Below are positions 40,657 through 50,550 of a stretch of DNA of 64,000 nt, one piece after another (the stretch's first letter is position 1; every line of letters starts with the position of its first letter). This DNA comes from Isoptericola sp. BMS4 (GTDB taxonomy: Bacteria; Actinomycetota; Actinomycetes; Actinomycetales; Cellulomonadaceae), in the NCBI RefSeq assembly GCF_011634835.1, contig NZ_SIRP01000001.1:2108034-2172033 (forward strand), given 5' to 3'. Under the pieces are notes generated by a model. It searched no databases and was not told where the DNA came from. It saw nothing but the letters and a program-made list of their open reading frames with translations. The position numbers and the translations under genes were made by a program.

Positions 40657-41916
40657 GTGACCGACATCCTCGACGAGCTGCACTGGCGGGGCCTGGTGGC
40701 GCAGACCACCGACGAGGCCGCGCTGCGTTCTGCGCTGTCCGAGGGGCCCGTCACCTATTACGCGGGCTTCGACCCGACCGCGCAGAGCCTGCACGTGGGC
40801 CACATGGTGCAGCTGCTGACCATGCGCCGCCTGCAGCTGGCGGGCCACCGCCCGCTCGCCCTCGTGGGCGGCGCCACCGGGCTGATCGGCGACCCGCGCC
40901 CGACCACGGAGCGCACCATGCAGTCGCGCGACGTGGTCGCGGGCTGGGTGGATCGCATCCGCTCGCAGATCGAGCCGTTCCTCGACTTCGAGGGGCCGGC
41001 GGCCGCGCGGATGGTCAACAACCTCGACTGGACGGGGTCGATGTCCGCGATCGACTTCCTGCGGGACGTCGGCAAGCACTTCCGCGTGGGCACCATGCTC
41101 GCCAAGGACATCGTGGCGCGCCGCCTGCACTCGGACGAGGGCATCAGCTACACCGAGTTCAGCTACCAGGTGCTCCAGGGGATGGACTACCGGGAGCTGT
41201 ACGAGCGCCACGGCTGCACGCTACAGCTCGGCGGCAACGACCAGTGGGGCAACCTGCTGTCCGGCGTCGAGCTCATCCGCAAGACCGACGGCGCGGCGGT
41301 GCACGCGATGACGTCGCCGCTGATCACCAAGGCCGACGGGTCCAAGATGGGCAAGTCCGAGGGAGGGGCCGTGTGGCTCGACCCCGAGCTGACGAGCCCG
41401 TACGCCTTCTACCAGTTCTGGCTCAACCAGGCGGACGCTGACGTCGTGAAGTACCTGAAGGTCTTCACGTTCCGCACCGCGGAGGAGATCGCCGCGCTCG
41501 AGCAGGAGGTGGCGGAGCGTCCCTTCGCCCGGGCGGCGCAGCGCGCCCTGGCGGGCGACCTGACCACGCTGGTGCACGGGCAGGGCGCGACCGACGCGGT
41601 CATCGGCGCGAGCCAGGCTCTCTTCGGTCGAGGCGAGCTGTCGGCCCTGGACGAGGGCACGCTCGGGGCTGCCGTGGCCGAGCTGCCACGGACCACGGCG
41701 AAGGCGGGGGACCTCGTCGTCGACGCGTTCGTGGGCACCGGGCTCGTCGCGTCCAAGGCGGCGGCACGCCGTGCGATCGCCGAGGGCGGGGCGTACGTGA
41801 ACAACGTCAAGGTGACCTCCGACGAGGCGGTGCTCGAGCCCGCCGATCTGCTGCACGGCCGGTTCGCCGTCCTGCGGCGCGGGAAGAAGACCCTGGCGGT
41901 CGCGTCCACCGACTGA
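40657..41916 (+). CDS. tyrS: Tyrosyl-tRNA synthetase
   Basis: Protein of 419 residues from GTG 40657 behind AAGGAG. Class I features: [21 protein letters not shown] (cited as two parts, with HVGH as the HIGH motif), [14 protein letters not shown] and KMGKS for KMSKS ([11 protein letters not shown]). The C-terminal S4 domain is present ([21 protein letters not shown]...VNNVKV). Attaches tyrosine to tRNA-Tyr. A strong hairpin terminator follows 3 bp after the stop, ahead of the rRNA operon. Confidence 0.98.
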
Positions 41917-42286: not shown

Positions 42287-42410
42287 TCCTGGTCTTGGAT
42301 GGTGTGCGTCGGTTGTTTGAGAACTCAACAGTGTGCTTGATAGTCAATTCCTGGTCTTGGATGGTGTGCGTCGGTTGTTTGAGAACTCAACAGTGTGCTT
42401 GATAGTCAAT
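42287..42410 (+). repeat. Perfect 62-bp tandem duplication in the rrn leader carrying a boxA-like antitermination element
   Basis: Copy 1 is 42287-42348 and copy 2 is 42349-42410, identical over all 62 bp. Each contains TTGTTTGAGAACTCAACAG and then GTGTGCTTGATAGTCAAT, matching the boxA/boxC-type antitermination leader described for actinobacterial rrn operons (NusB/S10 binding). The boxA-like cores lie at about 42314-42333 and 42376-42395. From 42411 to 42534 the leader continues AT-rich with T-runs and no gene. Confidence 0.9.
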
Positions 42411-42534
42411 GCCAAATTTTTGAACCTTTAGTGGTTCCTTTGGATCGGACAGTCTAGTTTTTTGCTAGCTTGTCTGGCCAGTATCGATTGGCATCGCGGG
42501 TCCTTTTTTGGGGGTTCGTGGTGTTGTTCTCTCT

Positions 42535-47778
<5,244 letters not shown>

Positions 47779-47787
47779 ACCCAACAT

Positions 47788-47823
47788 GCGTGGGGTGGGA
47801 GAGTAGGACGCCGCCGAACACCC
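47788..47823 (+). pseudogene. 3' remnant of a 5S rRNA gene
   Basis: GGGTGGGAGAGTAGGACGCC and the following GCCGAACACCC are the last ~36 nt of an actinobacterial 5S rRNA (loop E, helix IV end and the 3' strand of helix I). The first ~80 nt, including the usual GGTGGCCATAGCG start and ATTCCGAACCCGGAAG, and the normal 23S-5S spacer are missing: only 9 bp separate the 23S end from this fragment. It is either a deletion or an assembly collapse between rrn copies; the fragment cannot fold into 5S rRNA. Confidence 0.85.
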
Positions 47824-47829
47824 TTTCAT

Positions 47830-47870
47830 GTGAAGGCCCACCCCCGGATACCCCGGGGGTGGGCCTTCAC
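47830..47870 (+). terminator. rrn operon terminator
   Basis: Perfect 18-bp stem, 47830-47847 (GTGAAGGCCCACCCCCGG) with 47853-47870, and a 5-nt loop ATACC, directly after the 5S remnant. The following 230 bp to the next start codon hold no recognisable gene. Confidence 0.85.
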
Positions 47871-48103
47871 GCATACCCCCACACCCACCCGTGATCCGCA
47901 CACTCCACGTGGGCCGCTCCCGACCACTCATCGTCGAGGCCCGCGCGGCGCTGCGCGGCAAGGCATCCTGATCAGCCCCGGTGCGGATCGGCTCGGGTGG
48001 TGACAGGTGCGCGCTGTCACAGCTGCCCGTGGCCGGCAGGGCCCTGTCGAGCGATGGTGACGTGGGAGAATACCGGGGCATTGTCGTCGAGAAGGGGTAG
48101 ACC

Positions 48104-49540
48104 GTGAACGCATCGCCCGAGGACCGGGGCCGGGACGACTCGGCCGGCCGTTCGCCGCACCGTGGCGGCGGTACCTCCCGCAGCGGGGACCGGGACCGGA
48201 GGGCGGCCAGCGGCCGCGGTGGAGCCCAGCAGGGCCGCACGATCGGCGGTCGCCGTGAGGAGCGGCAGGACGACCGACGGTCGACGCGAGGCGGTCCTCC
48301 GGGAACCGACCGCCGAGGCGCCGACGACGGACGACGGACGGGGGCCCGCAGGGACGACACCGCGCGGGGAGCGTCGGACCGCCGTGACCGGCGGGACGCG
48401 CCGGCTGGAGGCGAGCGTCGTGGTGCTCCCGACCGCGGTGACCGTCGCGGTGCGCCGGACCGTGGCGAGCGTCGTGCTCCCGACCGTGGTGAGCGCCGTG
48501 GTGCGCCGGATCGCGGAGACCGCCGTCCCTCGGAGCGTGGCGACCGGCGCGGTGGCCCGGACCGCGCGGGTGCCGGGCGGGGCGACGGCCCCCGCGGGCA
48601 GGTCCGACGCGGAGCCGACGCCCGCGGGGCGGACGCGCGGCGCTCCGGACCGGGGCGCCCGGCGGCGCACCGTGGCGCGTCGCGCCCGGGGGAGGACAAG
48701 CGGCCCCGCACCCCTGAGCCGGAGATCGCCGAGGACGCGTCGATGGGTCAGCTCAGCCGCGACACCCGCGCGCGGATGCGCGGCCTGACGAAGGAGAACG
48801 CCGAGCGCGTCGGCCTGCACCTGGTCATGGCCGGCCGCCTGCTCGACACCGACCCCGAGCGTGCCTACGAGCACGCCCAGGCGGCGGTGCGGCGCGGGGG
48901 ACGGATCGACGTCGTGCGGGAGGCCGCGGGGATCGCCGCCTACCGCACCGGCAGGTTCGCCGAGGCGCTGCGCGAGCTGCGCACGGTCCGCCGGCTCAAC
49001 GGGTCGTCGGAGCACCTGCCGCTGATGGCGGACGCCGAGCGTGGCCTCGGGCGCCCGGAGCGAGCCATCGCCCTCGCGGCGAGCGAGGAGGCCCGCACCC
49101 TCGACGCCGAGGGCCGCACCGAGCTCGCCATCGTGGTGAGCGGGGCCCGGTCCGACCTGGGCGAGCACGAGGCCGCGCTGACCGTGCTGGACCGCATCCC
49201 GGCCGCCGAGCGGACCGGCGAGCTCGGGGTCCGGGTCCTGCAGGCCCGGGCCGTGGCCCTCGAGCAGGCCGGACGTGCCGACGAGGCCGCCGCGGTGCTC
49301 GCCGGCATCGACCCGGACGTGCTCGACCGCGCCGCCGGGGTGTCCCTCGACGACGACGTGGTGGTCTACGACGTCTACGACGAGTCGGCCGAGCCCGACG
49401 AGCCCGAGGACGACGCGCCCGAGGCCGACGTCACGGACGACCACACGACGCGGGACGCCGGCCAGGACGCACCCGCCGCACCGGGCGACGGAGACGACCC
49501 GCCCGTGCCGGAGGCGCGGGACGAGGAGCCGCGGGCGTGA
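48104..49540 (+). CDS. TPR-like protein with a long basic low-complexity N terminus
   Basis: Protein of 478 residues from GTG 48104. Residues 1-205 are a disordered Arg/Asp/Gly/Pro-rich tract with repeats such as GAPDRGDRR and GAPDRGERR. Residues about 210-410 form helical repeats (ALRELRTVRRLNGSSEHLPLM, EARTLDAEGRTELAIVVSG, AALTVLDRIPAAERT), a TPR-like fold. The C terminus (415-478) is strongly acidic. This charge-polarised design and place downstream of tyrS match the TPR protein of M. tuberculosis order (Rv1691). Role unknown; basic tract and operon with rRNA-modifying TlyA hint at nucleic-acid or ribosome contact, as inference. Confidence 0.8.
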   Translation: MNASPEDRGRDDSAGRSPHRGGGTSRSGDRDRRAASGRGGAQQGRTIGGRREERQDDRRSTRGGPPGTDRRGADDGRRTGARRDDTARGASDRRDRRDAPAGGERRGAPDRGDRRGAPDRGERRAPDRGERRGAPDRGDRRPSERGDRRGGPDRAGAGRGDGPRGQVRRGADARGADARRSGPGRPAAHRGASRPGEDKRPRTPEPEIAEDASMGQLSRDTRARMRGLTKENAERVGLHLVMAGRLLDTDPERAYEHAQAAVRRGGRIDVVREAAGIAAYRTGRFAEALRELRTVRRLNGSSEHLPLMADAERGLGRPERAIALAASEEARTLDAEGRTELAIVVSGARSDLGEHEAALTVLDRIPAAERTGELGVRVLQARAVALEQAGRADEAAAVLAGIDPDVLDRAAGVSLDDDVVVYDVYDESAEPDEPEDDAPEADVTDDHTTRDAGQDAPAAPGDGDDPPVPEARDEEPRA

Positions 49541-50550
49541 CGGCGATGCTGCGCGGCAGCGCCGAGCCGCTCGCCACGGCCCACGACCTCGCCCTGGTCG
49601 ACCTGGACGGCGTCGCGTACCGCGGCCACCTCGCGATCCCGCACGCCGCGCCGAGCCTCGTCTCGGCGCGCGACGCGGGACTGCGGCTCGTGTTCGTGAC
49701 GAACAACGCGTCCCGGGAGCCGGAGGACGTCGCCGGTCAGCTCACCGGCCTCGACATCCCGACGTCGCCCGACGAGGTGATGACGGCGGCGCAGGCCTGC
49801 GCCGCGCTGCTGCGGACGCGGCTCGCGCCGGGCGCCCGCGTCCTGGTGATCGGCGGCGCCGGCCTCGTCACCGCCGTCGAGGCCGCTGGCCTGCGGGTCG
49901 TGGAGTCGGCCGACGACGCACCGGAAGCGGTGGCCCAGGGGTACGCCCCCGGCCTGGCGTGGCCCGACCTGGCGGAGGCGGCGTACGCCGTCGCCGGCGG
50001 GGCGTGGCACGTGGCCAGCAACCTCGACCTCTCGCTGCCGACGGCGCGGGGTTTCGCCCCCGGCAACGGCGCGCTCGTCGGCGCGGTCACCGCGGCCACC
50101 GGCGTCCGCCCGGACAGCGCCGGCAAGCCGTCGCCGACCATGTACCGGATGGTCGTCGAGCGCAGCGGCGCACAGCGACCCCTGGTGGTCGGGGACCGGC
50201 TCGACACCGACCTGGCGGGAGCGCGGGCCGGCGGCTACCCGGGCCTGCACGTCCTCACGGGCGTCTCCTCCGCGCGGGACGCCGTGCTGGCGGAACCGGA
50301 GCTGCGTCCCGACTTCGTCGGTGCGGACCTGCGGTCGCTGCTCGAGCCGCACCCCGAGCCCGAGCCGGCCGCGGACGGCTGGTGGCGGTGCGGCGACCGG
50401 GCGGCACGCGTCACCGGCCGTACGCTCGAGATCGACAGGGAAGGGCCCGCCGGGATCGACGTGGTCAGGGCCGCGTGCGCGGCAGCGTGGGAGGTCGTCG
50501 ACGCCGGCGGCACCCTCGACCCGTCGAGCGTGCCCGAGCTCACGGCCTGA
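49537..50550 (+). CDS. HAD-family phosphatase (NagD/p-nitrophenyl phosphatase type)
   Basis: Protein of 337 residues from GTG 49537 (GTGA overlap, GAGGAG 8 nt upstream). HAD motifs: nucleophile DLDGVAYRG (about 26-34), VTNNASREPEDVA (motif II Thr), the Lys region DSAGKPSPTMYRMVVE and motif IV VVGDRLDTDLAGARAGGY. The cap-type fold corresponds to HAD subclass IIA, as in NagD. The last ~70 residues (GWWRCGDRAARVTGRTLEI, IDVVRAACAAAWEVVDAGG) form an extra domain seen in actinobacterial members. Substrate unknown; in Mycobacterium the same locus holds the glycerol-3-phosphate phosphatase Rv1692, so that activity is a good guess. Confidence 0.88.
   Translation: MTAMLRGSAEPLATAHDLALVDLDGVAYRGHLAIPHAAPSLVSARDAGLRLVFVTNNASREPEDVAGQLTGLDIPTSPDEVMTAAQACAALLRTRLAPGARVLVIGGAGLVTAVEAAGLRVVESADDAPEAVAQGYAPGLAWPDLAEAAYAVAGGAWHVASNLDLSLPTARGFAPGNGALVGAVTAATGVRPDSAGKPSPTMYRMVVERSGAQRPLVVGDRLDTDLAGARAGGYPGLHVLTGVSSARDAVLAEPELRPDFVGADLRSLLEPHPEPEPAADGWWRCGDRAARVTGRTLEIDREGPAGIDVVRAACAAAWEVVDAGGTLDPSSVPELTA

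Follow-up and report, generated by a model that had tools for sequence, protein, structure and literature searches.

A 5S rRNA gene reduced to its 3′ tail in a draft Isoptericola genome is very probably the product of a short-read misjoin

The draft genome of Isoptericola sp. BMS4 comprises 4,433,416 bases in 47 contigs. One rRNA operon lies within the stretch of 64,000 nucleotides that was analysed as a whole (C1:2108034-2172033, hereafter the window), and its 23S rRNA gene is followed almost immediately by the 3′ end of a 5S rRNA gene. A reading made from the sequence alone had offered two explanations for this arrangement: either the operon has truly lost its 23S-5S spacer and most of its 5S gene, or the assembly has joined two rrn copies wrongly. 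Is the 5S gene missing from the organism, or only from the draft?

What remains of the 5S gene in the window

The features of the operon and its surroundings are given in Table 1. The 5S 3′ motif GGGAGAGTAGGACGCCGCCG was found at 47797-47816 with zero mismatches (chance expectation 0.05 at up to three mismatches). The sequence-only reading had correctly recognised that only the 3′ tail of the gene remains. However, it put the remnant at the last ~36 nt, whereas the 5S end positions in relatives set its length at about 28 nt; likewise, the gap after the 23S rRNA gene is 12 nt and not 9 bp. An Rfam search of the whole window listed no 5S rRNA, and a permissive 5S scan of 47400-48400 returned no match. 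The structure taken for a terminator at 47830 does form a perfect hairpin, but it has no T run, and a scan for promoters and consensus terminators was empty. A small CACCC/GGGTG hairpin, described as spanning the junction, is present in the minimum-energy fold but absent from the centroid, and is treated as an incidental by-product of the join.

Table 1. Features of the rRNA operon and its flanks, in window coordinates.
Feature	Position	Strand	Basis or remark
tyrS, upstream synteny anchor	40657..41916	+	Pfam tRNA-synt_1b, SYY_C-terminal
16S leader, first copy of perfect 62-bp tandem duplication; probable end of 5′ flanking contig	42287..42348	+	
16S leader, second copy of the duplication; probable start of collapsed rrn contig	42349..42410	+	
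16S rRNA	42535..44057	+	Rfam RF00177
23S rRNA, full model length	44663..47779	+	Rfam RF02541
23S-5S spacer stub, 12 nt; probable terminal part of collapsed rrn contig	47780..47791	+	
Probable false junction: end of collapsed rrn contig (23S-5S spacer) abutted to 3′ flanking contig starting inside 5S	47791..47792		
5S rRNA 3′ tail, ~28 of ~117 nt; probable start of 3′ flanking contig	47792..47819	+	Motif match and 5S ends in relatives
62 bases common to this 5S tail and the second tail (minus strand, C1:4241458 downward)	47792..47853	+	Next base differs
Perfect 18-bp-stem hairpin, terminator-like, without T tract	47830..47870	+	Second copy has one-base deletion
HAD-family hydrolase, downstream synteny anchor	49537..50550	+	Pfam Hydrolase_6 / Hydrolase_like

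Measured from the first base of the 23S motif CCGGTACTAATC to the last base of the 5S motif, the distance is 67 nt in the window as opposed to 250-268 nt in all 14 operon copies of four single-contig genomes of the same genus (G001, G010, G013 and G017). Therefore, about 183-201 nt are missing from the window. In each of these four genomes, tyrS and the HAD gene enclose a full 5S, with the gene order of the window, and the complete chromosome of Luteimicrobium xylanilyticum (L095) carries tyrS, 16S, 23S and a full 5S. Across the 38 genomes compared (BMS4 included), a 5S match was found in 32. All nine single-contig genomes have 2-4 full 5S genes, and the six without a match, BMS4 among them, are all multi-contig. 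The tyrS product shares 91% identity with its counterpart in Isoptericola cucumis, which makes the genus Isoptericola likely; the I. cucumis contig itself breaks off inside the 16S.

rRNA fragments elsewhere in the assembly and a recurring 62-base overlap

The sequence-only reading had looked to other copies to compensate for the lost gene. A 5S covariance search of the readable own assembly, in which 150 of 236 first-pass candidates were scored, returned no match; of the 46 small contigs 5 were readable, 41 (31,886 bases) read as N, and C17 and C42 were covered only in part. No rRNA and three tRNAs came from an Rfam scan of 20 own-genome sequences (L036 and 19 small contigs; 14 contigs were N only). 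The conserved spacer motif of the relatives had 0 matches in the own genome at up to three mismatches. Searching the own genome with the spacer and 5S of a relative gave 18 matches at E values up to 10. The best of these were two 28-nt tails (E = 6.1e-6); one further match (E = 1.4e-4, minus strand) falls in the 16S-23S spacer of the window operon, and the remainder have E values of 0.26 or worse. A plasmid search in which 528 records with 23S were matched (the best being Arthrobacter crystallopoietes at 87.5%) added nothing to the question.

The 16S-23S stretch occurs once in the assembly. 16S leaders are found at three sites (C1:2150183 in the window, C1:3288120 and C1:4241559) and 5S tails at two. 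On the minus strand at C1:4241349-4241692, a leader is followed by exactly 100 N and then by the second 5S tail and its terminator. A run of exactly 100 N is commonly used to mark a gap whose size is not known, and this locus is probably an operon represented by a gap, even if the 100 N could in principle be something other than a scaffold gap. Comparison of the junction with other rrn copies had been proposed from the sequence alone. The second tail starts directly beside the 100 N at the same base as the tail in the window, and exactly 62 bases are common to the two.

The same length recurs at the other end of the operon. The leader motif is single in 14/14 operon copies of the relatives, as against the tandem duplication at 42287-42410 in the window. 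When the window, L036 and the five readable small contigs were scanned, no other near-full exact tandem repeat with a unit of 40-199 turned up. The duplication is most likely an assembly artefact, an untrimmed contig overlap, and it would be unsafe to read it as a doubling of a leader element. The break in leader 2 falls at the same base as that in leader 3, and up to this point the two agree over exactly 62 bases. Leader 1 has 59 bases in common with them up to their break and a further 3 beyond it, making 62 from its own divergence point. Moreover, two unplaced contigs among the five readable small ones (C28 and C34) are identical over exactly their first 62 bases.

The third leader (C1:3288119/3288120; L189 6120/6121) directly adjoins, with no N between them, a piece ending in a 62-bp repeat found elsewhere in the genome. 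The last 62 bases of that piece recur at C1:612978-613039, with further matches of 61, 60 and 42 bases. This junction is likely a misjoin that hides a third operon.

In all, exact sharing of 62 bases marks contig ends or joins at five places. Overlaps of k-1 at contig ends are a feature of de Bruijn graph assemblers, and a k=63 graph would produce just such a recurrence of 62 bases. A single shared length, equal to an odd k minus one, is found at several contig ends or joins, and the breaks fall at the borders of repeats: the leaders (three sites), the 5S tails (two sites), the C1:612978 repeat and elsewhere. The junction in the window is itself exactly at such a k-1 border, and not away from assembly borders as a true deletion would have it. 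A constant shared length of this kind can serve as a test on an assembly for which no reads are at hand.

Graph simulation with intact operons of relatives

For each of the four same-genus genomes separately, the operon copies (14 in total) were cut into unitigs with k=63, and pieces of at least 200 nt were retained. The 5S end was set one base beyond the Rfam end, by which count the tail in the window is 29 nt. Under these settings, 11 of the 14 copies retain just 9-49 nt of the 5S, as a 3′ tail that opens the downstream flank. The other three, all from G001, retain all 117 nt. Loss of the same piece from intact operons is therefore typical though not universal (11/14). The copies of G001 retain the 5S in full whichever of the five values of k is used, whilst at k=127 it is retained in 14/14 copies. 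At k=31, 55 and 77, too, most of the 5S disappears from the 11 copies that lose it at k=63, so that the simulation supports the mechanism and not k=63 specifically.

In G017, the collapsed operon forms one piece of 5401 bases that stops within the spacer, at 96 nt from where the 23S motif begins; the corresponding distance in the window is about 42 nt. Between this piece and the flank there are only pieces of 81-185 bases. The pattern resembles that of the window, in which such a piece would extend from 42349 to 47791 (5443 bases). Among the small contigs of the own assembly, the shortest has 212 bases, which fits a retention floor of about 200.

A misjoin weighed against loss, relocation and exchange

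Taken together, these data point almost certainly to an assembly artefact, in which a short-read misjoin at a repeated rRNA operon mimics a truncated 5S gene and no gene has really been lost. Short reads would have been assembled by a de Bruijn graph with k=63, merging at least three rRNA operons into one contig that ran from the point where the leaders merge to a few bases past the 23S, within the spacer. What lies beyond, namely the remaining spacer and the initial ~89 nt of the 5S, would have formed graph pieces too short for retention, and so discarded, or would have been omitted otherwise. The unique downstream contig would then open k-1 = 62 bases before the terminators diverge, at a point where 28 nt of the 5S remain. 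Finally, the contig ends would have been juxtaposed, with no N in the window: at the 5′ join the 62-base overlap would have been left twice, and at the 3′ join the missing piece would have been skipped. Of the two explanations first offered for the locus, the wrong join is thus the one favoured by the k-1 border at both 5S tails, the 62-bp duplication at the other end of the operon and the full syntenic 5S in 4/4 relatives. Judged from sequence comparison, a full 5S is most likely present at this place in the living cell, and the missing 183-201 bases are, as far as the evidence goes, absent from the record and not from the organism. Should one of the 41 small contigs that read as N carry a 5S, this would only strengthen the artefact reading.

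The other explanation first offered, a real deletion of the spacer and most of the 5S in one operon with the remaining copies as the sole 5S supply, is very unlikely. Bacteria with several operons can survive the loss of one 5S gene, and the junction in the window carries no N. However, the assembly border would then have to coincide with the deletion by chance: the breakpoint is exactly 62 bases before the point where the tails diverge, and the second tail begins at the same base. At its opposite end the operon has a 62-bp duplication, as expected of an untrimmed overlap. Nor is a compensating copy visible: the readable assembly, which takes in 5 of the 46 small contigs, yielded no full 5S at any other place. 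With a break at a k-1 contig border, a duplicated leader and intact syntenic 5S genes in relatives, the deletion first suspected is disfavoured.

It is more improbable still that the 5S genes have moved away from the operons, or that the standard 5S has been lost, leaving the operon tails as relics. This would agree with the covariance search, which found no 5S in the readable assembly. Against it, a full linked 5S stands at the syntenic place in 4/4 single-contig genomes of the genus, the five other genomes without a match are all multi-contig, and the k-1 signatures account for the breaks without any biology. Recombination between rrn copies, giving a chimeric operon in the living genome, can be set aside with equal confidence: near-identical operon copies can recombine, but homologous exchange between them would retain the spacer and the 5S, and it does not predict that exactly 62 bases are shared at the leaders and the 5S tails and also in a contig pair and a repeat with no relation to the operons. 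Each of the three alternatives was rejected on the grounds given for it.

The artefact inferred here has parallels in print. In the riboSeed paper (PMC6009695), rDNA repeats are described as problematic for short-read assembly, collapsed rDNA is suspected in reference genomes, and assembly results are said to vary with settings, the k-mer range among them. As in the cases given there, several near-identical operons appear to have been merged into one region with gaps at others; unlike in those cases, the collapsed operon here is also missing a part, and its ends are abutted without N, mimicking a gene deletion (PMC6009695). The draft of Paenibacillus polymyxa CR1 (PMC4301005) similarly had operons at contig boundaries or gaps, rRNA fragments at contig ends and rearrangements made by the assembly. 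Its gaps were closed by primer walking, whereas the present case is argued from sequence evidence. Short-read drafts with collapsed rRNA operons are already documented (PMC6009695, PMC4301005), and the present case is an ordinary one. When a short-read draft shows a tail-only 5S at a single rrn operon together with a tandem duplication in the leader, a contig join should be suspected first; claims of 5S loss or of unlinked 5S genes based on such drafts could be wrong.

Lastly, shorter repeats were observed in other parts of the window. At 691-762, a 15-bp unit is repeated perfectly in tandem, with 4.8 copies. Imperfect tandem repeats with periods of 24, 27, 51 and 54 occupy 48371-48566, inside a reading frame just downstream of the operon (48104-49540), and encode its repetitive N-terminal part, which is rich in Arg, Gly and Asp.
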